From contig WVZY01000077.1 in NCBI GenBank assembly GCA_011772205.1, positions 17,868 through 81,867 on the forward strand: DNA of 64,000 bases, read 5' to 3'. Position 1 is the stretch's first letter, and the number at the start of each line of letters is the position of its first letter. Below, in pieces: positions 1 to 61,708 of this stretch. Position numbers and translations under genes: made by a program. The notes below the pieces were generated by a model that ran no database searches, was not told where the DNA came from, and worked only from the letters and a program-made list of their open reading frames with translations. Source of the DNA: Candidatus Latescibacterota bacterium. GTDB lineage: Bacteria; Krumholzibacteriota; Krumholzibacteriia; WVZY01.

Positions 1-128
1 ATTTTGATGGCGGGCTGGCTCAGGAACGTTGTGGATATCATAAAGAAAATCAACAAAAGAAACAGAACGTCAATGAGCGACGTAACGTTCAGAATAACCG
101 ATCGCTTTTTGCTTCTTCGCATCTCCAT
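1..128 (-). CDS. exbD: ExbD/TolR biopolymer transport protein (partial, 3' end outside window)
   Basis: Only the first 42 codons lie in the window. They read MEMRRSKKRSV, then a single transmembrane segment with the family signature SLIDVLFLLLIFFMIS, in which the Asp of the LID motif is the proton-pathway residue of ExbD/TolR. The start is the ATG at 128, behind GGGAG; a second ATG upstream (137) is out of frame. The gene begins 24 nt after the exbB-like stop, which is the usual exbB-exbD order. The product should be an inner-membrane protein whose periplasmic domain works with ExbB and TonB to pass proton-motive force to the outer membrane. ExbD and TolR cannot be separated from this fragment; the neighbouring TonB-type protein favours ExbD. 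Confidence 0.85.
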   Translation of the reverse strand, partial: MEMRRSKKRSVILNVTSLIDVLFLLLIFFMISTTFLSQPAIK

Positions 129-152
129 CGTCTTTGCATACTCCCGCGGGAA

Positions 153-767
153 TCAACCGCTCCTGTGCATTGTGGCTAGTTGCTTGATGAGCGTGTGGGC
201 GTAACTTTCAATCTTCAATGTCAACGCATCCACTCTCGAATCGAAGAAATTGTAAGCGATCAGCGCCGGAATGCCGATCGAAAGGCCGAATGCCGTCGTA
301 ATCAGCGCCTCGGCGATCCCTCCTGAAAGGAGGCCCGCCTGGCCGACACCGGCAATACTGATCACGGAGAACACCTTTATCATCCCCAGCACGGTTCCCA
401 GAAGGCCCAGCAGCGGACTCGCCGCTGCGACGGTCTCCAGGACGACGAGATATCGCTCCAGGCGCTTCATTTCGCGGCGGCCCGTATCTTCCATCGCCTG
501 GCGGACTTCAAAGGGCGTCGAATTGGCTTCCTCCAGCCCGGCACGGATCACATTTGCAAAGGGGCTGTCGTAGCGCTGGCAGAGCTTGATTGCCATCGGT
601 ATGTCCGATGGTTCTTTCACTGATTCGATATAATTCACAATCTCGTTTTGAATCACACGGCGGTGCTGGAGATTGACTGCCTTCTCGATTACGACTGCCA
701 CTCCCATTATCGAGAGCAGCCCGAGGGGGATCATCACTACCCCTCCCTTGACCAAAATCGCCCACAT
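153..767 (-). CDS. exbB: ExbB/TolQ/MotA-family proton channel protein
   Basis: The 204-residue protein has a membrane segment near residues 8-28, a cytoplasmic loop, and two further membrane helices around 110-135 and 150-175. The stretch AAASPLLGLLGTVLGMIKVF and the later GIAEALITTAFGLSIGIPAL are the hallmark MotA/TolQ/ExbB motifs. The protein forms the pentameric inner-membrane channel that couples proton flow to TonB movement. The ATG at 767 is preceded by GAAAGGAG. It lies 6 nt downstream of the TonB-like gene and just before the ExbD-like gene, so the three are co-transcribed. Whether it is ExbB or TolQ is decided only by this context. Confidence 0.92.
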   Translation of the reverse strand: MWAILVKGGVVMIPLGLLSIMGVAVVIEKAVNLQHRRVIQNEIVNYIESVKEPSDIPMAIKLCQRYDSPFANVIRAGLEEANSTPFEVRQAMEDTGRREMKRLERYLVVLETVAAASPLLGLLGTVLGMIKVFSVISIAGVGQAGLLSGGIAEALITTAFGLSIGIPALIAYNFFDSRVDALTLKIESYAHTLIKQLATMHRSG

Positions 768-7320: not shown

Positions 7321-7671
7321 TTAATCTATGTGGCCGGTCTCCGGAGGAAAGTGCCTCGTCTCGAGAAGATTCCCATCATCATCGAACCAAAACTCGAGAC
7401 CACGGCTGTAATATTTCCACCGCTCGGTTTTCTCGCCACAGAAACTGAATCTGAGACGATGCGGCGTGTAGCCGTATTCGTCAAATATGGCCAGCTTGTC
7501 GCCCTTTAGATTCTCTCGCAGCGAAAACCGCCGAGCGTATTTCCGGCCTTTCTTGCCCCTTAGGTAGGTTACGCCGGAACGTTTGAACTTAACGTAATCC
7601 CGTCCTAGAGCGAACGTGTCCCCCGCCAAGAACAGAAAGACACAGGCCAGTAATAGGACCCTGATTCTCAT
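7321..7671 (-). CDS. small secreted protein of unknown function
   Basis: The 116-residue product starts with a clear signal peptide (MRIRVLLLACVFLFLAGDTFA, cleavage expected after about residue 21). The mature part is rich in basic and aromatic residues (DYVKFKRSGVTYL, FSFCGEKTERWKYYSRGLEFWFDDDGN) and has the look of a small beta-rich periplasmic or surface protein. I recognise no family. The ATG at 7671 is preceded by AAGGAG, the gene has its own extended -10 promoter at 7745-7774 and a terminator, so it is a genuine monocistronic gene. It lies next to the block of giant secreted proteins and uses the same promoter style, which hints at shared expression but proves nothing. Confidence 0.75.
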   Translation of the reverse strand: MRIRVLLLACVFLFLAGDTFALGRDYVKFKRSGVTYLRGKKGRKYARRFSLRENLKGDKLAIFDEYGYTPHRLRFSFCGEKTERWKYYSRGLEFWFDDDGNLLETRHFPPETGHID

Positions 7672-7972: not shown

Positions 7973-10900
7973 TTACTTTAGCAATATCATCTTTCTTGTT
8001 TTAACAAACTTCTTCGTTACGAGCTTGTAGAAATACACGCCGCTCGAGACCGGCTGTCCTGCATCGTTGCGGGCGTTCCAGCCTTTGGCATATTCACCCG
8101 CGGGATTCTCCTCGTTTACCAGCGTCTTCACCAGCTGCCCGGCGACGTTGTAGATTTTCAACGTCACATGGGCCCGTTCCTTGATCGAGTATTTGATTGT
8201 TGTGCTCGGATTGAATGGGTTCGGGTAGTTCTGGGCGAGGCTGTTTGTATAGTAGGGGGTGGCGTCTGCGCCTGAAGGATCTTCGACGGGTAGGCTAAAT
8301 AGATGCCGCAGGACACTGACCAGGTGATCCACACGATCAGGCACTCCTGCAGGAACATCGTCACGGATATAATGGAAGCTAAAGCCTGAGAGGACCACGG
8401 CAACCGGGTTGCCCAGCGCGTTCAACGTGTCGTACGCCACAACGGCACCGTCGTTCGCAGCGCCCGAGCCCCCGTACGTCATCTCCAGGGTCGTGCTCGC
8501 GACCGGCCGGATCACATCGAAGTCATTGATGCCCGGACAGCCGCCGTAGACAACGATCGTGTCTTCCTCGAGTGGAACACCGTGATCGAAGATCCCGCCA
8601 TCCTCACCGATCACCAGCGGCGATATAGAGAAGCTCACCGTGTGATCATCGTCCACCAACTGGTACGGAATGTACGTGCTGATGAACTGGGACGAGGACG
8701 GATTCGTCAGCGTTTCCCATTCTGAGGCCATGTTATCGCCGGAGAAGTAGATACCGGCTCCTACTGGGTCCGGATGCTGATCCATGAAGAAATAGAGCAT
8801 CGCGAAGTCATCCGTCTCGTTCGCGCTCATGTCACCAACCGTACCTCTGTTGAGGTTACCGGAGTTCCAGATAATCTTCCGGTAGTTCGGGAATAGCTGG
8901 TTTTGAACACTCCACATACGACCTGTAAGACCATTTCCGACCAACGAAGACGGCCCGCGCTTATCGAAGCGGTCGACCCAGTCCATGATCCCTATCATCT
9001 CGAACGCGGAATTGAAGTATGGCTCGGCACCTCTGCCGCTGAATTGATCAACATATAGGATGTTTCCGCCGTATCCACTGGGCAGGATCTGCATCTCCAT
9101 CGGGGCCGCGCAAGCCTCTTCGATATCGTCCACTGTGCCGGTGAATTGGCTCCACCACGTCGAAGTCACGTTGGCATCCGTCGCACCGAAAAAGAACCAC
9201 AAGGTGTCTCCGTTGGTGAAGAAATGATCATTCACATCGATGCAAAACCTGTCAGGCGCAGGACCGGTGCGAGGACCGCTATGCTCTGTAAAACACGTGT
9301 CGAGACGGAACTGATACCACTTCCGGCTGCCACAGATCACCGAGTCGACAACCGGCCAGCGATAACTATCCTCCACGATCTTATCGAGCGGCATCGGCTT
9401 GCTCTGAGGATCGCGGGAGAGATAGAAATAAACCGCAGATCCAAAACCGGTGTTCGGATCGCTCCCGAGGCCAAATGTCGGCTCGCTCACGGTAATGATT
9501 GCCGAGTCACCCGGTACATTATGTCCATCTAGATAAGATGTGATGTCGATCGCCGCACCGATTCTGGCCGTCCCAAGGGAGTCACCCCCCTCGGGAAAGG
9601 TATCGTTGAAAAGATCGATGTCTCGAACGCTGAATTGCGGACCCGTTACTCTGACCCGGATGAACCTCACGTTGTCGTAAAGAGGCCCATGCCTATGGCA
9701 GTCGGGTGGCTGGTAGGAATTGCAATAGAAACCGCACAGATCATAGCACCCGAGCGCGAGCTGTATCTGTTCAGCTCCCGGATCTATCAAGTCTGCATAA
9801 CTTTCAATCCATCGATGCCACCTTGGACCGTATCCGAAATTAATCCAAGCACGATCTCTCCAGTCTCCAGGGCAGCCCCCAATCCAGGTCCGGGCATGCC
9901 AGATAAAAGCGACCAATTCGGTGAAGGGATTGTCTTCGTATACGTCTATTTCGAAATACGCAGCATCTGCATCAGATGGAACGGGACTGCCGTAAATGTC
10001 CGTATCCCAATCAATGAGCGGCGACCAGATCTCATTCGTGAGATAAAGCATTCCTCCATCCACTTCCTTCCCATATGGCACCGCTTTCTGTGCGGGATGG
10101 CCGGCACAAGCCATGTCGACCGTCGATCCCTTGAAGAATCCCCACAGAAAAGAGAGATTGTGCACGCAGGGATCTTCTTGGAGGACGGCACTTCCAGGGA
10201 ACAGCCCCGCAAAATCCCCGTATGCCAGTTTGGCGTCTGCGTACCAATCTCCATCGGCTGTTGCCGTATCCCCAACCGCTTCCGATTCGAAATCCTGGTA
10301 GTCGAGCGTGCTCGCAGTATCCGACACGAGGATGCTGTCGATGACGATCGCTCCATCGGAGTTATACATCCCATCTTGATCGGACCAGCCAGTATCGGAG
10401 TCAAAGCGGAAACGAAATATCACCGAACCATCGAGCGAGTCTGCCGGTACGGTCAGGTTTGCCGTGATGTCCCCGTCTCCATCCAAAGCGAGCAAGTCAA
10501 CCCATGCACCGTCCTTATTTCTGTATTGAACATACGTGTAGTCGCAGTATGGCTCGGTATCATGATGTGCTTTGAAGGAGAGTGTCACATCGCCGCTGGT
10601 TGCAAATTCAACCGACTGGAACCGCTGGCCCCATGAATTTCCATACCCGGGCAGTTTCTTGTACGAGCAGAGATAGGTATCCGAGGCATTCGGCCTGGCG
10701 CCGCACCACAGGGACTGGTTCCCTTCGATTGGCACCAATCCGCCAAAGTCGCCACCATTCAATCCTGAAAAATCGTCCACATGGAAAAACACTCCCATAG
10801 GAGCTGTGAGATCAACGCCGAACCAGCCCTGCGGATCAGCCATGCCCGGGCCATCAAAATCAAAATCTGCCAGCACAAATGTTTCCACAACAGCTGTAGC

Positions 10901-11065
10901 GAAAAGCTCCCTCGCATCCAGCGGCATGTCGCTTCCTGTGTTGTACTCGTGAAAGATGTATCTCTTAGGGCTGCTCTTTTCAGGAGCCTTTCGCGCGAAG
11001 CTCCCCCAGGAAACCAGCATCAATGTCAACACCGCAATAAAAAGGCAAATCCATCGCCGTTTCAT
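7973..11065 (-). CDS. giant secreted protein, paralog A, with FlgD-Ig-like C-terminal export domain
   Basis: The 1030-residue protein has a signal peptide (about residues 1-25). Its N-terminal beta-rich module contains FHVDDFSGLNGGDFG, LWCGARP, LPGYGNSWGQ and FRFDSDTGWSDQDG and resembles MAM/jelly-roll parts of immune-inhibitor-A-like proteins. A related second half-repeat follows (about 270-480), then a middle domain ILYVDQFSGRGAEPYF ... IIWNSGNLNRGT ... GIYFSGDNMASEW. The C-terminal about 85 residues are a FlgD-Ig-like domain (SLAQNYPNPFNPSTTIKYS) ending KMILLK, a type used as an export signal in FCB bacteria. No catalytic residues of a known enzyme were seen. ATG 11065 follows AAGGAGG. Two paralogs lie at 13662-16784 and 17201-20314. 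Secretion is well supported; function is unknown. Confidence 0.85.
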   Translation of the reverse strand: MKRRWICLFIAVLTLMLVSWGSFARKAPEKSSPKRYIFHEYNTGSDMPLDARELFATAVVETFVLADFDFDGPGMADPQGWFGVDLTAPMGVFFHVDDFSGLNGGDFGGLVPIEGNQSLWCGARPNASDTYLCSYKKLPGYGNSWGQRFQSVEFATSGDVTLSFKAHHDTEPYCDYTYVQYRNKDGAWVDLLALDGDGDITANLTVPADSLDGSVIFRFRFDSDTGWSDQDGMYNSDGAIVIDSILVSDTASTLDYQDFESEAVGDTATADGDWYADAKLAYGDFAGLFPGSAVLQEDPCVHNLSFLWGFFKGSTVDMACAGHPAQKAVPYGKEVDGGMLYLTNEIWSPLIDWDTDIYGSPVPSDADAAYFEIDVYEDNPFTELVAFIWHARTWIGGCPGDWRDRAWINFGYGPRWHRWIESYADLIDPGAEQIQLALGCYDLCGFYCNSYQPPDCHRHGPLYDNVRFIRVRVTGPQFSVRDIDLFNDTFPEGGDSLGTARIGAAIDITSYLDGHNVPGDSAIITVSEPTFGLGSDPNTGFGSAVYFYLSRDPQSKPMPLDKIVEDSYRWPVVDSVICGSRKWYQFRLDTCFTEHSGPRTGPAPDRFCIDVNDHFFTNGDTLWFFFGATDANVTSTWWSQFTGTVDDIEEACAAPMEMQILPSGYGGNILYVDQFSGRGAEPYFNSAFEMIGIMDWVDRFDKRGPSSLVGNGLTGRMWSVQNQLFPNYRKIIWNSGNLNRGTVGDMSANETDDFAMLYFFMDQHPDPVGAGIYFSGDNMASEWETLTNPSSSQFISTYIPYQLVDDDHTVSFSISPLVIGEDGGIFDHGVPLEEDTIVVYGGCPGINDFDVIRPVASTTLEMTYGGSGAANDGAVVAYDTLNALGNPVAVVLSGFSFHYIRDDVPAGVPDRVDHLVSVLRHLFSLPVEDPSGADATPYYTNSLAQNYPNPFNPSTTIKYSIKERAHVTLKIYNVAGQLVKTLVNEENPAGEYAKGWNARNDAGQPVSSGVYFYKLVTKKFVKTRKMILLK

Positions 11066-11283
11066 CAGCTTCCTCCTTATTGAAGAGAATCACCCATGAA
11101 TTTGAAAAGCAGTAACTCCCGTATTCCCCGCCAAATGAACTTGTACTCCTTGCTGGAAATGATGGAATCAACATTTCGCGGGCTGCAGTTCAATGCGAGG
11201 CGCTGTATGAAGTCGCGGCAGTGATGTAAAGAAAAATGAGAGAAGAGATCAGTCGGTGAAGCAATCCAGGTAGTCAACGAGAA

Positions 11284-11326
11284 TGCACCTCGCACCCTAT
11301 GTTTGCAGGTGCGCGGGAGAGGTGCA
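11284..11326 (-). promoter_or_regulatory. nested hairpin in the leader of paralog A
   Basis: The outer arms TGCACCT/AGGTGCA (11320-11326 with 11284-11290) and inner arms CGCACC/GGTGCG (11308-11313 with 11291-11296) stack into a 13-bp stem with one 6-nt bulge. It lies in the transcribed leader, about 40 nt after the predicted start. It has no terminator T-tract and matches no riboswitch class I know. Confidence 0.5.
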
Positions 11327-11371
11327 CGACAGAACATCTGCCTTCCCCCCCAGGTAGTCGGCTGATTCATT

Positions 11372-11400
11372 ATATTACCATAGATTACTTTAATTTTCAA
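11372..11400 (-). promoter_or_regulatory. promoter of giant protein gene A
   Basis: Minus-strand TTGAAA (11400-11395), 17-nt spacer ending CTATGG, then TAATAT (11377-11372). TGG gives an extended -10. The predicted start is near 11365, about 300 nt before the ATG. Confidence 0.6.
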
Positions 11401-11602
11401 GGAATCACTTAATTCGCAGCGCCCTCGACCTCCTGCGAAAAAATCTCCTTGTCCTGCTCCAGCGACATCCCTCAGAATCCCCACGTAAGAGCCGATCTCA
11501 CAGGCGTCTGAGCCCTGACAGAGGTGCTCGACCTCCTGGCCGGCTTCTTGCAATCAGAAAAATGATAACCCATTGTGAATAAAAATCATCCAGTAGTCAG
11601 CG

Positions 11603-13414
11603 ATGCGTGAAAACCAGCATAACGCTTCCCTTGAGAGTGACTTTACGCTCGAAGCCGTGGCCGGCGCGCTCGGGCGCTCCGGTTTTCTCAGCCTCCCGCA
11701 AATCAAAGAGATATCCAAGTCTTCCGTCGTGAAGCGAGCACACCTCAGGAACAAGCTCAAAACCAAGGAGTCCGATAAGCCTTTCGTGTCACCGGTCGAG
11801 ATCATTGCCGAATTTGGCTTTCCGAGCACGAATCCCCGGCGGGATCAAATGGACGAAGCCGAGATCTGCGAGGCGCTCTCTAGAACGATGAATGTCCCGT
11901 TCGTTCGGATCGATCCTCTGAAGCTCGACGTAAAAAGTGTTTGCAGCATCGTTTCCAAACCGTTTGCCCGAAAACATCTTCTCGTCCCCATCAAGATCAA
12001 AGGCGGGGCGCTCACCGTTGCCATGGTGAATCCATTCGACCGCGAAATGATCAACAGCCTCGAAGACGTTACCGGCTGCACGGTGGTGCCCGTACTCGGG
12101 ATGAGGAGCGAGATTCTAAAAACGATCAACGAGGTCTTTGCGTTCGAGCACAGCCTGATGAAAGCAGAGAAGCTCCGGGATGCCGGCTATGACCTGGGAA
12201 ATCTCGAACAGCTCGCCGAAATGATGACCGAGGAGGAAATCGACGCCTCCGATAAACACATCATCAAAGCCGTCGACCTGCTATTCCAGTATGCATATGA
12301 ACAGCGGGCGAGCGACATCCATCTCGAGCCGAAGAGGGACAAAGGCGTGGTGCGCCTTCGAATCGACGGCAGGCTCCATGACACCCACTCGATTCCCAAA
12401 AAGATCTACCCTTCTTTCGTTTCTCGAATCAAGATCATGGCACGGATGGACATCGCTGAGAAGCGCAAGCCTCAAGACGGACGCATCAAAACGAGCTCAA
12501 AAGATGCCGAGGTGGAGCTCCGTGTTTCCATTGTTCCCGTCGCATTCGGGGAAAAGATCGTCATCCGCATATTCGATCCCAGCGTTCTCATGCAGGATCT
12601 CTCCTCGCTCGGGTTTTTCCCCGATCAGCTGGAGGCGTTCCAGAGATTTTTACACCGTCCATACGGCATCATCCTCGTCACCGGACCGACGGGGAGTGGG
12701 AAAACGACGACCCTTTACTCGGCGCTTCGGTATCTGTCGAATCCGGAAGTCAACATTACGACGATCGAGGATCCCATCGAGATGATCTATGAGCCGTTCA
12801 ATCAGATCGCCGTTCAGTCCCAGATTGGCATCACGTTCTCCACCGCTTTGAGGAACGTCCTCCGTCAGGACCCGGATATTATTATGGTCGGAGAGATTCG
12901 CGATCGAGAGACGGCCGAGTATGCGATCCAGGCGGCTCTCACGGGCCATCTGGTTCTTACGACACTCCACACGAACAACGCCGTTGGAGCCGTTACGCGG
13001 CTTACGGACTTGGGAGTGGAACCGTTTCTCATTGCATCTACGGCTCTCGGTGTGATTGCCCAGCGCCTTGTCCGGATGGTGTGCAAAGAGTGCGATGTTC
13101 CCGCCCAGATCTCTGAAGAAGAGAAACGTCTCCTTTGCCTAGAAGATGACGTTGATCTTTCTAACTTGCGCGCAGGAAAAGGATGCGAGAAGTGCCGCAA
13201 TACGGGCTATAAAGGACGCACAGGGGTTTACGAAGTTTTGGAAGCAACGGAGGAAATTCGCCTGCTAGTCAGGGACTGTGCGGATGAGAAGGACATCGAA
13301 AGAGCTGCGCGGCGCTCTCAGATGAGACCGCTCCTCTCGAGCGCGATAGAGAATCTCATTGCCGGAAAAACGACGGTTGAAGAGATTTTGCGCGTCGTTC
13401 CGCTGGCCGGATAA
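11603..13414 (+). CDS. pilB: type IV pilus assembly / type II secretion ATPase PilB/GspE
   Basis: The 603-residue protein has an N-terminal GSPII_E_N-like domain (about residues 60-185) and then the hexameric ATPase domain. Walker A is GPTGSGKTT (361-369); the Asp and His boxes include RASDIHLEP (near 235) and GHLVLTTLHTN, and the Walker B region is DPDIIMVGEIRDRETAEYAI. A zinc-binding four-cysteine insert (CKEC ... CEKC) near 496-548 is typical of PilB/GspE. It should power extension of a pilus or pseudopilus from the cytosolic face of the inner membrane. No pilC, pilT, pilM-Q or pilin gene is in the window, so it is an orphan here. It sits on the opposite strand between two giant secreted protein genes. 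Confidence 0.93.
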   Translation: MRENQHNASLESDFTLEAVAGALGRSGFLSLPQIKEISKSSVVKRAHLRNKLKTKESDKPFVSPVEIIAEFGFPSTNPRRDQMDEAEICEALSRTMNVPFVRIDPLKLDVKSVCSIVSKPFARKHLLVPIKIKGGALTVAMVNPFDREMINSLEDVTGCTVVPVLGMRSEILKTINEVFAFEHSLMKAEKLRDAGYDLGNLEQLAEMMTEEEIDASDKHIIKAVDLLFQYAYEQRASDIHLEPKRDKGVVRLRIDGRLHDTHSIPKKIYPSFVSRIKIMARMDIAEKRKPQDGRIKTSSKDAEVELRVSIVPVAFGEKIVIRIFDPSVLMQDLSSLGFFPDQLEAFQRFLHRPYGIILVTGPTGSGKTTTLYSALRYLSNPEVNITTIEDPIEMIYEPFNQIAVQSQIGITFSTALRNVLRQDPDIIMVGEIRDRETAEYAIQAALTGHLVLTTLHTNNAVGAVTRLTDLGVEPFLIASTALGVIAQRLVRMVCKECDVPAQISEEEKRLLCLEDDVDLSNLRAGKGCEKCRNTGYKGRTGVYEVLEATEEIRLLVRDCADEKDIERAARRSQMRPLLSSAIENLIAGKTTVEEILRVVPLAG

Positions 13415-13661
13415 AATTCGTTCGTCCACTATCCGGATACGCACCCTACGGCCTATTGCTTGGCAAAGACGATACGACCACTGGCTGCGTAAACTTCGCA
13501 CAATCGCTGGGCAGGCAAACACCATACAGCCGCTGTCCGGGCAAGCAAAACTTATAGATGCGACAATACGAAGGGGCACTCCGCGCCTCAACATCTCGCT
13601 GAAATCGCGTCGTACCCCCTCGCACGATCTTAACCAGGCAAATCTTCCCTCTGCTCTCCCC
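13415..13661. other. convergent gap between pilB and paralog B
   Basis: 247 nt with short imperfect repeats of GGCAAGCAAA-like sequence near 13460-13550 and no recognisable gene or terminator. Confidence 0.3.
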
Positions 13662-16600
13662 CTACTTCAAAAGTATCATTTTCTTCGTCTGCGTGAAATT
13701 CTTCGTCACAATTCTGTAGAAGTACACGCCACTGGAGACCGGATTGCCCTCGTCGTTGCGGCCATTCCATCCCTTGGTGTATTCTCCCGCAGGCTTCTCC
13801 TCGTTCACCAGCCTCCTCACCAGCTGACCCGCCACGTTGTAGACCTTCAAGGACACATGCGCACGCTCCTTGATCGAGTACTCTATGGTGGTAATCGGAT
13901 TGAACGGGTTCGGGTAGTTCTGGGCGAGGCTGTTCGTGTACCGTGGCGTTTCGCCAATTCCCGTGGGATCCGAGGGAAATGATACCAGGTGCCGGATGAT
14001 ATCGACCAAATGATCGTCACGATCCGATAGCGGTGCAGGAACATCGTCGCGGATGTAGTGGAAGCTGAATCCAGAGAGTACTACGCTGACCCGGTTCCCC
14101 AGTGCGTTCAACGTGTCGAACGCCACAACGGCACCGTCGGTGGCCAAACCTGTACCACCATAGGTCATCTCCAGACTCGTTCCTCCTGCCGGCTGAATCA
14201 CATCGAAGTCATTGATCGTCGGACAGCCGCCGTAGACAACGATCGTATCTTCCTCGTCCGGCACACCATGGTCGAAGATTCCTCCATCCTCGCCAATCAC
14301 CAGCGGCGACTTGCCGTGGCTGCCGGTATGATCGCCGCTGACCAGATTGTGCGAAATGAACTTGTTGATGAAGGCTGACGAGGAGGGATTGGTCAAGCCG
14401 GCCCATTCCTCGGCCATGTCATCACCGGAGAAGTAGATCCCTTCCATGGTCGGATTTGGATGCTGATCGAGGAAGAAGTCGAGCATCGCGAAATCATCCG
14501 CTTTAATATTGGAGCCATCCCCCACCGTCCCGCTGGAAAGATCTCCCGAATTCCATATGATCAGTTGGTAATTCGGGTGGAGCTGCTGTGCAACGTCTCG
14601 CACGTGATATCCTAAAGCATCTGCCGATAAAGGACCCACAAATGCACCACGCTTATCGAATCGATCAACTAGATGATCGATCTCCAATATTTCAAACGCG
14701 GAATCAAAGTATGGCTGAGCTCCACCAGCGTTGAATTGATCGACATAGAGAATATCTCCCCCTCTCGCCGGACCTGCACCTGGGAGAATCTGCATCTCCA
14801 TAGGCGCCGAGGCAGCCTCTGCGATATCCCATGTCGTACCGGATCCCTGACTCCAGTAGGTTTCCTCGCCCAATGTGTTCTCAGCACCAAAGAAGTAGTA
14901 CAGCGTATCGCCGTTTGTAAAGAGGTGGTCGTTTACATCGATACAGAATCCGTTAACGCGGATGGATACGCACGAACCATTGGACCTGGTACAAGCCGTA
15001 TCGCAACGGAATTGATACCATTTCGTGCCGCTAATGACCGTTGAATCGACCAGAGGCCAGCGGAAGCCGTCTTCTTCCAGCATATCCCCCATTTTCCCTG
15101 GCTGGCTCGGTGGATCGATTGAAAGGTAGCAGTAGACGGCCGAGCCAAATCCGCTTTTCGGATCGGGCTCCTTGAGACCGGCGTCCGGATCGTAGCAAGT
15201 TACAACCGCTGAATCGCCAGGTATAATGTTTGGGTCACTATAGGCTATATCGTGCGCCGCATCGATACGACCTGTTCCTAAAGATGTCCCATTCTCGGGG
15301 AACGTATCCTGGAAAAGGTCTAAGTCACGGGCACTCCACTGGGGGCCGTTCGTCGAAATACGCCGGATCTCGACATTATCGAACAGCGGCGAATGGCTGT
15401 GGCAGGGATCGAGAGAACCGTCAAAAAACCATTGCATATCCACAACGCCCAACGCAATCTGTATGTGAGAAGCGCCCGGATCGATATATTCACCTAAGGT
15501 GTAGGTGCTTCTGGACCAATCCTTGCGGGGACCATAGTAGATTCCAGATCCCTGGTCTTTCCACTGACCGGGACATCCATCTTTCCAGGATCGAACGTCC
15601 CATGTGTAATAGACGTAGAGGCCTGGCAGATCCCGGTACACATCGAACGATAACTCGATTGTCGATCCAACTCCGGCCAGAGCAACCGGTGGTGACCAGA
15701 TCGAATTAGTGATGTATTGGTCATACTCGTTCTTTTTTGGAACCGCAATCTGTTCGGGGTGGCCGCCACAAGCGTAGGTTTCAGTAGATCCCATGATAAA
15801 CGCCCACATGCAGCTGTAATTCCAATGGCAGGGATCTTCCTGCAGCAACGCTGAGCCTGGAAAGAGACCGGCAAAATCCCCGTACCCTGACTTTACGCAG
15901 CATTCCCAGTCGCCGTCCGTGGTGGCCAGATCGCCAGGGGACTCATCCTCGAAATCCTCGAAGTCATAAGTAGTGAGAGCCGTCTGTACGGTAATGCTGT
16001 CAACCAGTACGGCCCCGTCCGTGTTCAAGAAGCCGTCTTGATCTGAATACGCACCATCGGATCCGAAGTGGAAACGGATTTTTACGAAACCATCGTGTCC
16101 AGCAGGGATGGCGTCGGTCCGCAGCTGTTTGCTCCCAGTACCGTCGAATGTCGCGATGTTAACCCAATCATCACTGGCGATATCATCAATGTTTTCTATG
16201 GAGTCGCACGAGGTATTCGTCGCATATTCGAGGTATGTTTGGTCAAATCCCCCTTCAGAATCCCACGCGATGAGATAGCTGATAGCAATCGCCTCAGTAT
16301 CCGGCACCTCAATACACTTGAAGCACCACCCTTGATCCCAGTCGTTTCCATACCCAGGCAGTGCGGCGTAGACACATAAGACAGGATCTGCGGTATCCGG
16401 CCGCGCGCCGCACCAGGCCGATTGGTCGCCTTCCAAAGGCACTAGGAGGCCGAAGTCCCCTCCGTCAAGACCTGTAAAATCATCGACATGGAAGTAGCAG
16501 CCAAGTGCTGCTGTCCAGTCTTGACCGGTCCAACCTTCGTTCGTACAAAACACACCTCCCACATCAAATGTCCAGGAGCCAAGGATGACCGTGTCCGCCT

Positions 16601-16784
16601 GTAAGTATGACCTGAGTCCCTGCTCTTCCAAAGGACGATCCAAATCCAGGACGCTTAAAGGCTCTGGCTGTATTTCCCAGTTGGCTGGATTTCGCTCTTG
16701 AGAGACTTTGCGCGCAGATAGAAGCGATGCTAGCAAAGAGATCATCACCAAAGCGAACAACGTTTTTCTCGTGAAGGCGCTCAT
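13662..16784 (-). CDS. giant secreted protein, paralog B, with FlgD-Ig-like C-terminal export domain
   Basis: The 1040-residue protein has the same plan as paralog A: signal peptide, N-terminal module (GCYFHVDDFTGLDGGDFG, AWCGARP, LPGYGNDWDQGW), a second module (YDFEDFEDESPGDLATTDGD, FAGLFPGSALLQEDPC), middle domain (ILYVDQFNAGGAQPYF, IIWNSGDLSSGTVGDGS) and C-terminal FlgD-Ig-like domain ending KMILLK. Many cysteines are kept between paralogs, which suggests disulphides in the mature, exported protein. It is closer to paralog C than to A over the N-terminal half. The ATG at 16784 follows AGGAGG. The leader of about 195 nt holds a long stem, and the promoter has a palindrome at its predicted start. 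Function unknown. Confidence 0.85.
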   Translation of the reverse strand: MSAFTRKTLFALVMISLLASLLSARKVSQERNPANWEIQPEPLSVLDLDRPLEEQGLRSYLQADTVILGSWTFDVGGVFCTNEGWTGQDWTAALGCYFHVDDFTGLDGGDFGLLVPLEGDQSAWCGARPDTADPVLCVYAALPGYGNDWDQGWCFKCIEVPDTEAIAISYLIAWDSEGGFDQTYLEYATNTSCDSIENIDDIASDDWVNIATFDGTGSKQLRTDAIPAGHDGFVKIRFHFGSDGAYSDQDGFLNTDGAVLVDSITVQTALTTYDFEDFEDESPGDLATTDGDWECCVKSGYGDFAGLFPGSALLQEDPCHWNYSCMWAFIMGSTETYACGGHPEQIAVPKKNEYDQYITNSIWSPPVALAGVGSTIELSFDVYRDLPGLYVYYTWDVRSWKDGCPGQWKDQGSGIYYGPRKDWSRSTYTLGEYIDPGASHIQIALGVVDMQWFFDGSLDPCHSHSPLFDNVEIRRISTNGPQWSARDLDLFQDTFPENGTSLGTGRIDAAHDIAYSDPNIIPGDSAVVTCYDPDAGLKEPDPKSGFGSAVYCYLSIDPPSQPGKMGDMLEEDGFRWPLVDSTVISGTKWYQFRCDTACTRSNGSCVSIRVNGFCIDVNDHLFTNGDTLYYFFGAENTLGEETYWSQGSGTTWDIAEAASAPMEMQILPGAGPARGGDILYVDQFNAGGAQPYFDSAFEILEIDHLVDRFDKRGAFVGPLSADALGYHVRDVAQQLHPNYQLIIWNSGDLSSGTVGDGSNIKADDFAMLDFFLDQHPNPTMEGIYFSGDDMAEEWAGLTNPSSSAFINKFISHNLVSGDHTGSHGKSPLVIGEDGGIFDHGVPDEEDTIVVYGGCPTINDFDVIQPAGGTSLEMTYGGTGLATDGAVVAFDTLNALGNRVSVVLSGFSFHYIRDDVPAPLSDRDDHLVDIIRHLVSFPSDPTGIGETPRYTNSLAQNYPNPFNPITTIEYSIKERAHVSLKVYNVAGQLVRRLVNEEKPAGEYTKGWNGRNDEGNPVSSGVYFYRIVTKNFTQTKKMILLK
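13665..13960 (-). repeat. nearly identical 3' coding ends of the giant paralogs (copy in B)
   Basis: The last 290 nt or so of paralog B match the corresponding end of paralog C (17204-17500) with only scattered differences, and more loosely the end of A (7976-8240). This is higher identity than in the N-terminal coding parts, as expected for recent duplication or gene conversion acting on the export domain. Confidence 0.7.
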
Positions 16785-16881
16785 TTCCCGACCTCCTTCA
16801 AGAAATGATTGTGATGATAATGAAATAAGGGATAGAAGAGGAAGAATTCTTGTAGCGGGCTTCTTTGAAGATTAAAGATCT

Positions 16882-16934
16882 CCACAAGCCGTTCCGGATC
16901 ACGGGACAGGATCCAAATAGGACTGGGCTTGTGG
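16882..16934 (-). promoter_or_regulatory. nested stem in the leader of paralog B
   Basis: The 9-nt arms CCACAAGCC (plus strand 16882-16890) and GGCTTGTGG (16926-16934) are perfectly complementary. Between them lies an inner stem GGATC/GATCC (16896-16900 with 16910-16914). The element is in the transcribed leader, about 100 nt before the ATG. No T-tract follows, so it is not a terminator. Confidence 0.55.
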
Positions 16935-16964
16935 GTCACGCAACGAAACAAGACCGCCGCCCCC

Positions 16965-16979
16965 GTTCAATAATTGAAC
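16965..16979. promoter_or_regulatory. perfect palindrome at the predicted start of paralog B transcription
   Basis: GTTCAATAATTGAAC is a perfect 7+1+7 inverted repeat that covers the transcription start predicted from the promoter at 16985-17013. The position and symmetry suit a repressor operator. As a plus-strand terminator it would serve no gene. Confidence 0.5.
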
Positions 16980-16984
16980 TATTT

Positions 16985-17013
16985 TTTGTATCATATAATT
17001 CCGCAAAATTCAA
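16985..17013 (-). promoter_or_regulatory. promoter of giant protein gene B
   Basis: Minus-strand TTGAAT (17013-17008), 17-nt spacer ending TATATGA, then TACAAA (16990-16985). The spacer end ATGA mirrors the ATGG of the A and C promoters. The -10 is weak, so activation may be needed. Confidence 0.45.
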
Positions 17014-17136
17014 TCATATAAGACGCTAAATTCTTGGCTCGTCCTGCCCTGCAGTCATCTTATTAAATCAGAAACTTACTCGATCCTAACTGCTTACCAC
17101 GTAGGCGATTTCCTGCATCCCATGCATTCAATCATC

Positions 17137-17171
17137 AAAAAAACGTGGGCCTGTGAGTCAATCACCGGCCC
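17137..17171 (-). terminator. rho-independent terminator of paralog C
   Basis: On the minus strand GGGCC-G-GTGA-loop-TCAC-A-GGCCC forms a stem with one mismatch and a 5-nt loop, followed by ACG and seven T. It lies 30 nt after the stop codon. Confidence 0.8.
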
Positions 17172-17200
17172 TGGTTCCATCCCTCGATTCGAATCCATTC

Positions 17201-20200
17201 TTACTTCAAAAGTATCATCTTCTTCGTCTGCGTGAAGTTCTTTGACACAATTCTGTAGAAGTACACGCCGCTGGAAACGGATTCACCCGCATCACTGCGG
17301 CCATTCCATCCCTTGGTGTATTCTCCAGCAGGCTTCTCCTCGTTCACCAGCGTCCTCACCAGCTGACCCGCCACGTTGTAGACATTCAAGGACACATGCG
17401 CGCGCTCCCTGATCGAGTACTTGATCGTCGTACTCGGATTGAACGGGTTCGGGTAGTTCTGGGCGAGATCGTTCGTGTAGTGCGGTGTATCGCCTGCTCC
17501 AGTTACATCGGGAAGAGTATGCCTGAGAAAATGGAGAATGTCCCTCAAATGATCAATGCGATCTTTTACTCCCAAAGGAAGCCCATTATCTCGAATGCAG
17601 TGGTAGCTGAATCCGGAAAGCACCACCCCGATAGGATTCTCGAGCGCGTTCGTCGTTTCATATGACACCACGGCACCGTCGGTTGGATCATTCGTGCCGC
17701 TGTACGTCATTTCGAGATTTGCGCCGCCTAACGGCTCGATCATGTCGAAATCATTGATGATCGGGCAGCCGCCATAGGCAACGATCGAGTCGACACCCCA
17801 ATAATAAGTGTCGAAGATCCCGCCAACCGTGCCCGCCACCAGCGGCGACACGTCATGGTTTACCGTATGGTCGCCCGTGACTAGGTTGTGCGGGATGAAT
17901 TTGTCGATGAATTGAGTCGAAGAAATCCCCGTCAATTCCACCCACTCCTCGGCCATGTCATCACCGGAAAAGTATATTCCAGCACCTATTGTGTTTGGAT
18001 GCTGATCGAGGAAGAAGTCGAGCATCGCGAAGTCGTCCGTTTCGTTCGCGCTCCCATCGCCTACCGTTCCATGGGCTAGGTCCCCCGAGTTCCAAATGAT
18101 CGTTCTATAAAACGGATGCAGTTGGTTCCCGATGTTGACGACACGGCCGGCAAGCCCGTTCCCAGCCAGCGAGGATGGTCCCCGCTTATCGAAACGGTCG
18201 ACCTGCTCCCAAATCCCTGATTCCATGAGCGCCGTGTCGAAAAACGGCTGAGCTCCTCTCCCACTGAAGTTGTCGACGTAAAGGATGGTCCCGCCTCTCG
18301 CCGGACCAGCACCCGGCAGAATCTGCGTCTCCATTGGTGCGGCGCAAGCTTCATTGATGTTGGCACCAATCCCGGAGCCCTCGCTCCAGTACGTCGTGTT
18401 CGCACCCGCATCGGTAGCACCAAAGAAGAACCATAGAGTGTCCCCATTGGTGAAGAAGTGGTCGTTGACATCGATGCAAAACCGGTCGTAGACCGCTCCC
18501 ATCCGTGGGCCGGAGCGCCCAGAAAAGACCGTATCGCATCGGAACACATACCACTTCCGCCCATCGCAAATGACCGAATCCACTACCGGCCAGCGGAAGC
18601 CATCCTCCACTATTTTATCGAGCGGCATCGGTTTGCTACGAGGATCGCGGCAAAGATAGAAGTAGACGGCAGGTCCGAATCCGGTATAACCATCGATCCC
18701 AATGCCCAACTCTGGCTCGCTCACCATCACAATTGCCGAGTCACCAGGAACATTGCTCCCGTCAAGATACTGTGTAATATCGATCGCCGCATCAACTCGC
18801 CCCGTTCCAACGGCCTGTCCATTTTCAGGGAACGTGTCATTGAAAAGATCGATGTCCCGGACGCTCCACTGCGGGCCGACTGTGGAGATGCGCCGGATGA
18901 TGACGTTATCAAAGAGTGGAGAATGACTGTGACACTCCCCTGGCGAACTAGAACTGCACCATAAAGGACACATATCGATAACACCAAGTTGGACCTGAAG
19001 GTGTGAAGCCCCGGGCGCAACCAGATCTCCCACCCAGTTAACGGATGTCGCCCAATCCTTATGTGACCCATAATAAACGAAGCCCCGACCCTTCCAATGA
19101 CTCGGACAATCATCGACGATGGACCGAATATGCCATGTATAGTAGATTAAGCTTGGAATGGGGAGATCTCGATAAACATCGAACACAAATTCAAAGTGGG
19201 ATCCGGTACCAGTGATGGCCACCAATGGGGAGCGGATGGCGTTGTTTATGTACTGACCCTGTTCGTTCCCTTTCGGGACTGCCAGCTGCGCTGGAAATCC
19301 GCCGCACGCATATGATTCCGTGGAACCGTTGACGAACGCCCACATGCACGTGAGATTCAACTTGCAGGGGTCTTCTTGGACCAGAGTAATTCCCGGGAAA
19401 AGACCGGCAAAATCGCCAAAGCCGGACATTATACAGCATTCCCAGTCGCCATCCGTCGTGATGAGATCACCTGGAGATTCATCTTCAAAATCTTCGAAAT
19501 CATAGACGGTCAGCGCAGTTCGAACGGTGATACTGTCAACAATCACCGCACCATCTGTGTCCCACAAACCATCCTCGTCGGACCAGGCAGCATCGGACCT
19601 GAAACGGAATCGAATCTTCACATGACCCTCATGTCCTGCAGGGATGGTGCCGATCCTCAATTGTTTGCCCCCAACATCGTCGAAGGTCGCTAGGTTGACC
19701 CAATCATCGCCAAGGATATCATCTATGTTCTGCAAGGAGTCACATGTGCTCTTTGTCGCATACTCGAGGTATGTGCAGTCAAATCCCGGTTCAGAATCCC
19801 AGGCGATGAGATAGCTGATGGCAATCGCCTCGGTATCCGGAACATCGATGCACTTGAAACACCAACCCTGATCCCATGCATTTCCATATCCCGGAAGCTT
19901 GGCGTAACCACACAGGATCATGCTTGCCGTATCCGGTCGAGCTCCGCACCAGACTGATTGGTTGCCCTCAAGAGGAACTAAGTTACCGTAATCACCGCCG
20001 CCCAGACCAGCGAAGTCGTCGACATGAAAATAGCAACCGGATTGCTCCGTAAGATCATGCGTCGTCCAGCCTTGAGCATCGCACACAAGACCTGAATCGA
20101 ACGTCCAATAGGCTAACACAAGCGTGTCCGCCAGAGCGGCAGATCGAGGAACCAGCACACCCGAGTGGTAATCCATATCGAGGGGGGTGGAATTATCGAG

Positions 20201-20314
20201 CCGCATTTTGGCACGCCCCGAGTTCGGACCTACTGATGCCTCCCTCGCCATCGCCGACGCTATCGATACGGCAATGACGATCATCATCCCGAACATGAAA
20301 GCTCTTTTCTTCAT
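17201..20314 (-). CDS. giant secreted protein, paralog C, with FlgD-Ig-like C-terminal export domain
   Basis: The 1037-residue protein has a signal peptide (about residues 1-23: MKKRAFMFGMMIVIAVSIAS), then N-terminal modules with GCYFHVDDFAGLGGGDYG, VWCGARP and LPGYGNAWDQGW. A second module follows (FEDFEDESPGDLITTDGDWE), then a middle domain (ILYVDNFSGRGAQPFF, IIWNSGDLAHGTVGDGS, GIYFSGDDMAEEW) and a FlgD-Ig-like end with LAQNYPNPFNPSTTIKYS and KMILLK. It shares the middle part more with A (DRFDKRGPSSLAGNGLAGRV) and the N-terminal part more with B, so the three look like mosaics. It has a strong extended -10 promoter (20536-20564), a leader of about 215 nt, and its own terminator. A surface or released protein is expected; no enzyme activity can be assigned. 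Confidence 0.85.
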   Translation of the reverse strand: MKKRAFMFGMMIVIAVSIASAMAREASVGPNSGRAKMRLDNSTPLDMDYHSGVLVPRSAALADTLVLAYWTFDSGLVCDAQGWTTHDLTEQSGCYFHVDDFAGLGGGDYGNLVPLEGNQSVWCGARPDTASMILCGYAKLPGYGNAWDQGWCFKCIDVPDTEAIAISYLIAWDSEPGFDCTYLEYATKSTCDSLQNIDDILGDDWVNLATFDDVGGKQLRIGTIPAGHEGHVKIRFRFRSDAAWSDEDGLWDTDGAVIVDSITVRTALTVYDFEDFEDESPGDLITTDGDWECCIMSGFGDFAGLFPGITLVQEDPCKLNLTCMWAFVNGSTESYACGGFPAQLAVPKGNEQGQYINNAIRSPLVAITGTGSHFEFVFDVYRDLPIPSLIYYTWHIRSIVDDCPSHWKGRGFVYYGSHKDWATSVNWVGDLVAPGASHLQVQLGVIDMCPLWCSSSSPGECHSHSPLFDNVIIRRISTVGPQWSVRDIDLFNDTFPENGQAVGTGRVDAAIDITQYLDGSNVPGDSAIVMVSEPELGIGIDGYTGFGPAVYFYLCRDPRSKPMPLDKIVEDGFRWPVVDSVICDGRKWYVFRCDTVFSGRSGPRMGAVYDRFCIDVNDHFFTNGDTLWFFFGATDAGANTTYWSEGSGIGANINEACAAPMETQILPGAGPARGGTILYVDNFSGRGAQPFFDTALMESGIWEQVDRFDKRGPSSLAGNGLAGRVVNIGNQLHPFYRTIIWNSGDLAHGTVGDGSANETDDFAMLDFFLDQHPNTIGAGIYFSGDDMAEEWVELTGISSTQFIDKFIPHNLVTGDHTVNHDVSPLVAGTVGGIFDTYYWGVDSIVAYGGCPIINDFDMIEPLGGANLEMTYSGTNDPTDGAVVSYETTNALENPIGVVLSGFSYHCIRDNGLPLGVKDRIDHLRDILHFLRHTLPDVTGAGDTPHYTNDLAQNYPNPFNPSTTIKYSIRERAHVSLNVYNVAGQLVRTLVNEEKPAGEYTKGWNGRSDAGESVSSGVYFYRIVSKNFTQTKKMILLK

Positions 20315-20745: not shown

Positions 20746-21330
20746 TTAGTCCTCCCACCTGGTGATCTTGTCGTTTACCACATAAATATATTTGCTTCGG
20801 TTCCCTACTTTGTAGATCCATTGTTCCTCTTTATGCCCGCCAATTTCATAGGATTTGATCTCTGTGGGGATGCCCCACGATTCCAAGGCCGCTTCGGCGT
20901 CCATGCCTATGAACACTTCGTGGTTTCGTATTGCACGTCCCGTCTTCTTCCCCCATTTCCTGATATATTCCACCTGGCGGAGCATCGGATCCTTGAACCA
21001 GAAGATATCGGCTAATCTGCTCTCAATCTTCTCGACAGTTAGCGGCCTTTCAACTTCGAGTCCGTGCACAATTTTTTTTCTCTTCGGACCCTTAACAGTA
21101 ACGGATCCATTCATGTGGAAGTCCAGGTCGATGATTTCCACTTTTGTATCCCTTTGCACGATACCGTGCTGGCTGAGATCTTCGAGTATGATGCGGGTCC
21201 AGGCCTTTTTATTTTTGTACTTCTTGATCAGTGCTTCCTGCTTCTCTATCGGAATATCCTTGATGATCGCATGCTTGACCGATGAGCAGCTGAAAAGAAC
21301 CAATATGAGAGGTAGAATCAACTTCTTCAT
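20746..21330 (-). CDS. lipoprotein of unknown function
   Basis: The 194-residue protein has a lipoprotein signal peptide with lipobox LFSC (MKKLILPLILVLFSCSS), so it should be lipid-anchored in the envelope. The mature part is charged and ends with a segment (EAALESWGIPTEIKSYEIGG ... QWIYKVGNRSKYIYVVNDKI) that resembles small outer-membrane lipoproteins of the SmpA/OmlA (BamE) type. In that fold a short helix pair is followed by a sheet with W..P....G....W.Y. The BamE-like fold is an inference. The start is ATG 21330 with GGAG 5 nt upstream; a GTG and another ATG lie just before. It is last in the ffh operon, 60 nt after yraN. Confidence 0.7.
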   Translation of the reverse strand: MKKLILPLILVLFSCSSVKHAIIKDIPIEKQEALIKKYKNKKAWTRIILEDLSQHGIVQRDTKVEIIDLDFHMNGSVTVKGPKRKKIVHGLEVERPLTVEKIESRLADIFWFKDPMLRQVEYIRKWGKKTGRAIRNHEVFIGMDAEAALESWGIPTEIKSYEIGGHKEEQWIYKVGNRSKYIYVVNDKITRWED

Positions 21331-21390
21331 CATCACTCCTTTGACGCCGGATGGAACTTTTTGGATGAGTCTGGTGGGGTCCCGATATTT

Positions 21391-59809: not shown

Positions 59810-60079
59810 TGGCGGGAGCTTCAATCATATCCCCTGAGCCAAAAGATACCCCTGCGCCTTCTGTTCTCGCCTGAGCAAACGGATCTCGAAGCACGACCGA
59901 TTATCATACGATGTTGGTATTCGCTCGAGAAGGGCCAGAACGTTCGAGAGTTTTGGAAAAAAGCGTTGACCGCTCTTATCCTGTATGTTACATGAACATA
60001 GTACTTTTCAGCGATATAGGCCCAATATGATGCAGGCCTGCTTGCATTCATGCACTCCCCTGTTACGAGGAATGAAAGT

Positions 60080-61708
60080 TTGACCAAAAACTTTCGATAT
60101 GCCGCTATCCTCTTCATTCTCCCCTGCATCTTGGGCTTTTCATCTCGAGCTTCTGGACAAATCCTCTCAATCATTAAAGCAGATTTTTCCACCATTTCGC
60201 CAAACGGCGACGGCAGCAATGACAGCACGAAGCTGACATACACTCTGCTCGACAGTGTGGTTTCCCTTGACGTGATCGTTTTTGACAGCGATACGGTTTC
60301 CGTTGTCGACACACTGATCAGTGGGGAGCCAAGAAGTGCCGGTCTCGATTCAGTCATATGGAACGGAGAGGATTCTTTGGGCGTTGTTGTAGCTGAGGAT
60401 TCTTACCACATTTTAATTCGAGCACAAGGAATCTCGGAAACGGATTCTGCCTTTATCACTATCATTGTGGACTTAACGGCGCCCAAAGCGCAGGTGCTAA
60501 GCGTAAATCCGGGGATTTTTGCGCCGAACCTGCCGGATGTAGTAGAAGAAACTCTCCGCGTTTCTTTCAGGATTTGGGATTCTTCAGAAAAAGATGACTT
60601 GGGAGTTGCCTTTATCACTCCAAAGAGCGGCGAAGAGATTTCACTTAAGAAGGATATCCCGGATTTTGCCGGGGATGGAGATTATGAAGTCCGTTGGGAC
60701 GAAGATGAATTTGATCCATTTATTCCTCCACCAGGCCAGGGCCAGCCCGATTCTCGTTTTATTGACGGCATTTATCAAGCGAAGTTGGAGATAAAAGATG
60801 ATGGTGCAAATAAAGGGTCCGCTACTGCATTCTTGAATTTCGACTTAAAAGCTCCATCTATAGAAATTACAGATCCTTCAGGCACCGGTACTCTTTCGTT
60901 TAGAGTAATTCCGGACAGCATCCTCGGTTGGGCATACGACCGCAATGGGATCACCGAAATAATGATGTGGTACGATCACCCGACTTCGGATTCTTTGGAA
61001 GCCCCGGTCCAATGGACAAAGAATGACACAATTTTCTTCAGCGCCCCTCTCGCCGACTCAATCGTGGAGGAGCGGGCTTATACGATCAAGTTCAGAGCTT
61101 CCGATCCGGCGCCCAGAGAGAAAGCCCTGTTTGTCACCATCAAGCTAGACACCACAGTGCCGCCGCCCCCCGTTCTCGATCCCCCCGCTGGTGTCGTTCA
61201 TTCGCGCATATACACCCTCACCGGAGAAGCCTTTGGTGATACGAAGTGGGTAAGAATCTCGCGCGGCGGAACTCTGGTTGATTCAGCCTTTACTCAAATA
61301 GAGCCCTTGTTCGCGCGCGATGTCCCATTGGAAGCGGGATCAAACTCTCTCACCGGAAGAGCGGTCGATGGTGCGGGGAATGTGAGCACGATCTCGAACG
61401 CCATTACAGTGGTGTACGATCCTTCCCCTGGATTGTTTATCCCCACACCGTTCCGCCCGAACGACAAATTCCAAATCAACCTCGCACAGCCACCCGTCAG
61501 GGTGCTGCTAAAGATATACGACCTTGGAGGCGACCTGGTCGTCTCGTTGGAAGACCGTTCTGCAAGCGCTGATCCTATGATTCCTTGGGACGGACTCAAC
61601 GGCGAGAGAGACGCGGTCAAAAGAGGACCTCTGGTCGCCGTAGCTATCGCCGAATATGCGGATGGAAGCAAAACGGCCTTTAGAGAAATCTTTCTCTTCG
61701 ATCCATAG
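60080..61708 (+). CDS. secreted FlgD-Ig-like protein
   Basis: The 542-residue protein has a signal peptide (MTKNFRYAAILFILPCILG) and starts at TTG 60080, 8 nt after GAGGA; the ATG at 60050 has no binding site and would spoil the signal peptide. Near the N-terminus is FSTISPNGDGSNDSTKLTY and WNGEDSLGVVVAEDSYHI, a FlgD-like Ig domain of the gliding-motility-associated type. In the middle are repeated Ig-like strands (KAQVLSVNPGIF, KAPSIEITDPSGT). The last 90 residues are a second FlgD-like domain (LFIPTPFRPNDKFQI, LKIYDLGGDLVVSL, PWDGLNGERD). It should be exported and stay at the surface. The PorV-like gene follows by 26 nt, the usual pairing for such export. Confidence 0.83.
   Translation: MTKNFRYAAILFILPCILGFSSRASGQILSIIKADFSTISPNGDGSNDSTKLTYTLLDSVVSLDVIVFDSDTVSVVDTLISGEPRSAGLDSVIWNGEDSLGVVVAEDSYHILIRAQGISETDSAFITIIVDLTAPKAQVLSVNPGIFAPNLPDVVEETLRVSFRIWDSSEKDDLGVAFITPKSGEEISLKKDIPDFAGDGDYEVRWDEDEFDPFIPPPGQGQPDSRFIDGIYQAKLEIKDDGANKGSATAFLNFDLKAPSIEITDPSGTGTLSFRVIPDSILGWAYDRNGITEIMMWYDHPTSDSLEAPVQWTKNDTIFFSAPLADSIVEERAYTIKFRASDPAPREKALFVTIKLDTTVPPPPVLDPPAGVVHSRIYTLTGEAFGDTKWVRISRGGTLVDSAFTQIEPLFARDVPLEAGSNSLTGRAVDGAGNVSTISNAITVVYDPSPGLFIPTPFRPNDKFQINLAQPPVRVLLKIYDLGGDLVVSLEDRSASADPMIPWDGLNGERDAVKRGPLVAVAIAEYADGSKTAFREIFLFDP

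Follow-up and report, generated by a model that had tools for sequence, protein, structure and literature searches.

Among described systems, HagA, RgpA, and Kgp, which are modular adhesins of Porphyromonas gingivalis, appear to be the closest analogue of the genes reported here. As reported in one study (PMC5266723), the gingipains show combinatorial modularity of their adhesin domains, HagA carries more such domains, the strains present a mosaic of surface-protein variants, and Kgp occurs in mosaic alleles with a high level of recombination. The genes in question are three large paralogs (copies A, B, and C) in a stretch of 64,000 nt, hereafter the window, from the draft genome of a Candidatus Latescibacterota bacterium (assembly GCA_011772205.1, contig WVZY01000077.1, positions 17,868–81,867; in our numbering the window lies within contig C71). 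They encode putative cargo of the type IX secretion system (T9SS), and the comparisons below give good support to an exchange of modules between dispersed copies that reaches beyond the export tail. Like the P. gingivalis adhesins, the proteins are T9SS-tailed, occur in several copies, and have interchangeable domains, a surface location being predicted here. Unlike them, the full-length copies keep one five-domain order instead of repeats and belong to a different phylum. A, B, and C also gave no Pfam match to Cleaved_Adhesin, DUF2436, or the C25 protease at E-values up to 1; this comparison used sequence profiles, with fold-level relations outside its scope, and its filters drop most matches above 0.1. 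No paper on the T9SS of this phylum, i.e., none joining “Krumholzibacter” and “type IX”, was found in a literature search that mostly lacked subscription papers.

Results

Segmental exchange between copies

The genome (4.13 Mb in 81 contigs, 96.5% complete) contained seven full-length copies of the family. Three of these lie on C71, and contigs C73, C69, C11, and C9 have a single one each. Their predicted order of modules is two MAM-like jelly-rolls (MAM1 and MAM2), an immunoglobulin (Ig)-like part, a class I glutamine amidotransferase (GATase)-like domain, and a FlgD-Ig tail. A reading of the window from its letters alone (the sequence-only reading) had described A, B, and C as paralogs of 1030, 1040, and 1037 codons; these open reading frames (ORFs), with ATG starts on the minus strand, were recovered and could be aligned end to end as proteins. 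Upstream of the tail, protein identity was 54% (A–B), 55% (A–C), and 62% (B–C), and in the final 120 alignment columns 76, 71, and 79%, respectively. As fourfold-degenerate sites in the body were only 35–40% identical, the three genes are old duplicates; B and C reached 33/44 in the last part. The 3′ ends had been called nearly identical, which holds for the pair B–C (91.4% over 267 columns) but not for A (82.3% to B over 220 nt, 86.6% to C over 134 nt). The N-terminal parts had been said to differ, which is too simple: the protein bodies are 54–62% identical, and only the MAM half of A falls outside the clade formed by B, C, and the other copies.

The strongest signal of exchange was found not in the tails of A, B, and C, but between the GATase-like domain of A and the copy on contig C69. 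Both share a tract of 714 nt with 94.1% identity, covering codons 666–903 of A and thereby most of this domain. Within the tract 224/238 amino acids and 99/110 fourfold sites were identical, compared to 298/592 and 35/144 before it and 94/126 and 19/50 after it. The longest run comprised 117 consecutive identical polymorphic sites, and 2000 column shuffles never gave more than 20. The C69 copy shared another tract with the C11 copy (445 nt, 96.2% identical, starting near codon 896 and ending 18 nt beyond the stop), in which 58/62 fourfold sites agreed vs. 67/218 before. Based on both tracts, the C69 copy combines an A-like GATase domain with a C11-like tail. The tail tract of B and C rests on fourfold sites (24/27 identical across the final 66 codons vs. 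107/273 before) and on the overall identity of the tract, as there was no long perfect run (21 sites at most, 1/2000 shuffles). In the run-length test of this genome, 5 of the 21 pairs exceeded all shuffles (0/2000); however, column shuffles ignore uneven constraint, and we therefore took only the runs of 117 and 83 sites as strong. The tracts are 91–96% and not 100% identical, which speaks against a simple misassembly.

Identity mapped along the genes was thus uneven, and uniform divergence was rejected by this pattern and by the run-length shuffles. The tail as the sole shuffled part was rejected as well, the largest tract being the GATase-like domain. The proposal of repeated duplication with conversion of the export module therefore stands for duplication and for segmental exchange but not for its confinement to that module, since older conflicts also involve the Ig-like and MAM parts.

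Conflict between domain trees

Trees were calculated for each domain from the seven copies of this genome, nine copies of the relative G071, and two of G073. The sequences on contigs C33, C6, C25, and C59 were left out; the C59 protein and the first C33 piece were added later for MAM. For G071, 9 of the 11 matches were used, omitting a truncated copy and a short variant, for G022 six of the seven fetched copies (nine matched), omitting one that ends at residue 863, and for G013 all six fetched copies (11 matched).

The supported partner differed from domain to domain. Within this genome, C11 grouped with C69 in MAM1 (support 93), C69 with C73 in MAM2 (96), A with C73 in the Ig-like part (95), A with C69 in the GATase-like domain (100), and B with C in the tail (91). 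The partner of A in MAM1 was the C59 protein (49% identity, support 93) and not B and C, a grouping absent from MAM2. Likewise, in G071 the Ig-like part of copy T1 grouped with E1 (100) and its tail with T2 and T3 (94).

In approximately unbiased (AU) tests, the tree of one domain was evaluated on the data of another, with 20 comparisons for each of four genomes. At p < 0.05 the trees conflicted in 18/20 comparisons in this genome, 18/20 in G071, 14/20 in G013, and 6/20 in G022, and at p < 0.005 in 11/20, 11/20, 7/20, and 2/20, respectively. Controls within single domains were run on this genome and G071 and used half the columns, hence they had less power. One half of a domain against the other conflicted at p < 0.05 in 4/10 and 5/10 cases. 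At p < 0.005 this fell to 1/10 and 0/10, and odd against even columns gave 0/10 in both genomes. Judged by the odd/even control, the AU test rejects too readily at 0.05, and we therefore relied on p < 0.005. Domain conflict goes beyond the controls in two of the four genomes, this one and G071, and lies mainly between domains.

Predicted architecture

Copy C was modeled with AlphaFold (pLDDT 87.6), and fold comparison gave MAM, Ig-like, and GATase-like matches. The single middle domain of the sequence-only reading is better described as two, the Ig-like and the GATase-like one. Residues 102–295, the core of the first MAM-like domain, matched Bacillus anthracis InhA2. This domain may be inserted in the second, since fold-match ranges of 63..477 (which state first and last residue only) with about 150 aligned residues suggest that the second takes in strands near residues 62–90. 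Unlike the MAM modules of Immune inhibitor A and meprin, those of A, B, and C have no metalloprotease domain attached; NF052323 was matched in its tail region only, and the M6 catalytic domain was absent from the Pfam and NCBIfam results of the three proteins. Foldseek with the Ig-like model gave no match at E ≤ 0.001. No Pfam or NCBIfam model matched the bodies of A, B, and C, which appear to be a new protein family. A family profile searched against PDB sequences matched in the tail only (PorU, FlgD, PG93), with E-values of 0.0076 or worse. Neither A, B, and C nor this profile matched a known enzyme family, and the reading as a known enzyme was rejected at the sequence level, Pfam and NCBIfam giving no enzyme match outside the tail.

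Table 1. Copies A, B, and C, predicted modules of copy C, and shared tracts, in window positions.
Feature	Position	Strand	Basis
Copy A, 1030 aa: start resembling a signal, two jelly-rolls of MAM type, Ig-like and GATase-like domains, FlgD-Ig tail	7973..11065	-	ORF, domain search, alignment
Copy B, 1040 aa, architecture as in A	13662..16784	-	ORF, domain search, alignment
Copy C, 1037 aa, architecture as in A; AlphaFold2-modeled	17201..20314	-	ORF, domain search, alignment, model
First MAM-like jelly-roll, C residues 62–298, border approximate	19421..20131	-	model, fold match
Second MAM-like jelly-roll, C residues 299–480	18875..19420	-	model, fold match
Segment of C between second MAM-like and GATase-like parts	18299..18874	-	model-based
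Class I GATase-like alpha/beta domain, C residues 673–935, no conserved elbow Cys	17510..18298	-	model, fold match, homolog columns
FlgD-Ig/T9SS type A sorting domain, C residues 947–1037	17204..17476	-	domain search
Tract of A shared with the C69 copy	8357..9070	-	nucleotide comparison
Tail tract of B shared with C	13663..13928	-	nucleotide comparison
Tail tract of C shared with B	17202..17467	-	nucleotide comparison, fourfold sites

Export tail and type IX machinery

The FlgD-Ig-like C-terminus proposed earlier was confirmed, as all three tails passed the curated cut-offs of TIGR04183 (43.6–44.5 bits, cut-off 23), PF18962 (30.1–33.7 bits, cut-off 27), and PF13860 (FlgD_ig). Tail domain, model, and tracts also bear out the description as modular proteins with an export tail. 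The genome encodes SprA (2070 aa, contig C64, 518.2 bits vs. a cut-off of 200) and PorU (1347 aa, contig C8, 552.4 bits vs. 420), which is adjoined by a PorV/PorQ-family gene (222.6 bits vs. a family cut-off of 90). With these tails, and with SprA and PorU over their cut-offs, export by the T9SS is the best reading of the sequences, and in this A, B, and C resemble T9SS type A cargo. Tail matches numbered 102 across the genome, all but one over the family cut-off and a few in frames below 100 aa. Among the genomes of the phylum that were examined, SprA was matched in 75/75 and was over the cut-off in 70. Two ORFs of 313 and 277 aa follow the PorU–PorV-family pair on the same strand (G000:C8 174500–184000, L108).

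Copies in the genome and the phylum

A profile built from A, B, and C matched 107 places in the genome, mostly the tail alone. The search for further copies yielded, besides the seven full-length copies, one broken copy and three rearranged relatives. The C9 copy (L007) is full length with one in-frame TAG, and the C33 copy (L008/L012) lies in two pieces in different frames; both could reflect decay or draft errors. The rearranged relatives have other fronts or middles: the one on C6 has a BNR_2 front (35.5 bits vs. a cut-off of 31.4), and those on C25 and C59 gave weak matches to DUF4394 (21 bits, under the cut-off of 29.6) and Beta_helix (13.9 bits, under the cut-off of 25.9), respectively. 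Directly downstream of the C73 copy lies a protein of 1794 aa (L107:2707–8091, minus strand) that has Ig domains of the HYDIN/ASH type, matches DUF4350, and ends in a T9SS tail.

The family body was matched in 75/75 searched genomes of the phylum with a completeness of at least 70 (this genome included), with 1 to 14 matches each, some of which are weak or cover the MAM half only. Three consecutive matches also occurred, among the rows listed, in G071, G073, G022, and G026. A frame of 587 aa in G071 (L092:745–2505, minus strand) fuses the MAM half (C 1–480) to the tail (938–1037), leaving out the Ig-like and GATase-like parts. Relatives were confirmed in named genomes, one UBP1 and two Krumholzibacteriota/Krumholzibacteriia metagenome-assembled genomes (3/3 loci), which makes Krumholzibacteriota the likely phylum of this genome too. 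With copy C as the protein query, 7992 candidates were scored and 325 of them were homologs at E ≤ 0.001; in the best 120 of these 325, the closest homolog outside this genome was 57% identical, and no near strain for a population comparison turned up.

Across 73 homologs, mean pairwise identity was 0.501 for MAM1, 0.505 for MAM2, 0.470 for the Ig-like part, 0.481 for the GATase-like domain, and 0.629 for the tail. The only variable segment was the short linker after the signal (0.197), and none of the domains was hypervariable.

Neighboring genes

Between A and B, on the opposite strand, lies a PilB/GspE-type ATPase (11603–13414, plus strand; T2SSE 429.9 bits, MshEN). Two small ORFs with starts that look signal-like by eye flank the cluster (7321–7671 and 20746–21336, both minus strand), and no Pfam family matched them at E 0.001. 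A protein of 552 aa (60050–61708, plus strand) has its best FlgD_ig stretch at residues 54–124 and not at the C-terminus. No RNA family at gathering score and no tRNA was detected in the window. An upstream element common to all copies was not seen in 200 nt inspected by eye.

Discussion

We favor, with moderate confidence, the reading that A, B, and C are five-module, T9SS-exported, non-enzymatic, adhesin-like proteins that likely bind ligands at the surface, and that the domain-sized tracts likely arose by gene conversion. Tail, machinery, and predicted folds suggest surface display and ligand binding. The putative signal peptides of A, B, and C, read by eye, would serve Sec in the inner export step. 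The outer membrane would be crossed via SprA, the FlgD-Ig tail acting as the signal, a presumed use of a tail and a machinery that are both seen here. By analogy with known T9SS, a PorU-like sortase might then cut the tail and leave the protein anchored to a surface glycolipid, where the exposed jelly-roll, Ig-like, and GATase-like parts would, judging by their folds, bind glycans or proteins. RecA-type recombination could act on short conserved stretches close to the domain borders and swap single modules, turning tandem and scattered copies into mosaics of lineages.

Several observations weigh against this reading. Odd against even columns already conflicted at p < 0.05 in 2/10 comparisons in this genome and 4/10 in G071 (0/2 and 1/2 for the whole protein). 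G022 provides no evidence for exchange, and the conflicts of G013 at p < 0.005 stand without a control of their own. In G071, the MAM2 grouping of T1, T2, and T3 (91) dropped from the groups with support of at least 80 once three sequences were added, and only 2/36 pairs (E1/E2 and D3/D4) showed runs above all 2000 shuffles, i.e., few recent tracts. The 81 contigs of the genome are in a draft state. Concerning export, the PorV/PorQ-family gene reached 143.9 bits against the PorV equivalog (cut-off 250), and the best GldL match was at 19.8 bits, under the cut-off of 68.3, GldK, GldM, and GldN not having been searched. The T9SS motor is therefore not accounted for, and in this A, B, and C may differ from known T9SS type A cargo, as they do in bodies that match no Pfam or NCBIfam model. 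Finally, the conservation of C850 in the GATase-like domain, without a firm partner, may leave room for an unusual enzyme.

If the proteins were secreted enzymes, the GATase-like domain would be catalytic, be it through C850 or through some other residue, and the only role of the jelly-roll and Ig-like parts would be to assist substrate binding. MAM domains do accompany proteases (meprin, InhA2), and six residues are highly conserved: D706, R707, D709, and D857 in 73/73 homologs, C850 in 72/73, and H816 in 70/73. The nucleophile of class I glutamine amidotransferases, however, is a Cys at a strand-turn-helix elbow, and here the elbow (residues 779–791, positioned via secondary structure and not superposition, with the four commonest residues per column inspected) had a conserved Cys at no position, the maximum being 2/73 at 783. 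Lack of this Cys and the export tail distinguish the domain from other class I GATase-like folds (STM3548, GH42, IFT52 N-domain). The best fold matches include IFT52 and GH42, whose GATase-like domains are not known to be catalytic, the GGCP motif that surrounds C850 is missing from the rearranged relative on C25, and outside the tail no enzyme family of Pfam or NCBIfam was matched. We consider an enzymatic role unlikely.

Antigenic or phase variation, with broken copies donating to expressed ones, would agree with the domain-scale, segmental transfer among paralogs seen here and with the interrupted C9 and C33 copies beside intact ones. Yet the 73 homologs contain no hypervariable domain, the recent tracts connect loci that look intact, and there is no known host, all of which makes this explanation quite improbable. 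Ordinary old paralogs that duplicated and diverged under uneven constraint, without exchange, would fit a tail conserved family-wide as an export signal, runs of some 20 identical polymorphic sites, which could be conserved motifs, and G022, whose domain trees conflict no more than the controls elsewhere, but this is the least probable account, as the grouping partner changes by domain and the constraint-free fourfold sites agree almost throughout both tracts of the C69 copy vs. 24–31% before them.

Exchange of modules in T9SS-tailed, adhesin-like proteins thus remains the reading that we favor. A bolder version, which we put forward only tentatively, would see in the family a combinatorial library of T9SS-delivered surface receptors, in which five fixed slots are refilled singly from dispersed sisters, decayed copies included. 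If so, the refilling of slots would create new ligand specificities and leave the export route unchanged. The large export-tailed family is found in every genome searched within one phylum, and if the exchange is confirmed, the shuffling of T9SS surface proteins would not be special to the host-associated pathogen best known for it.

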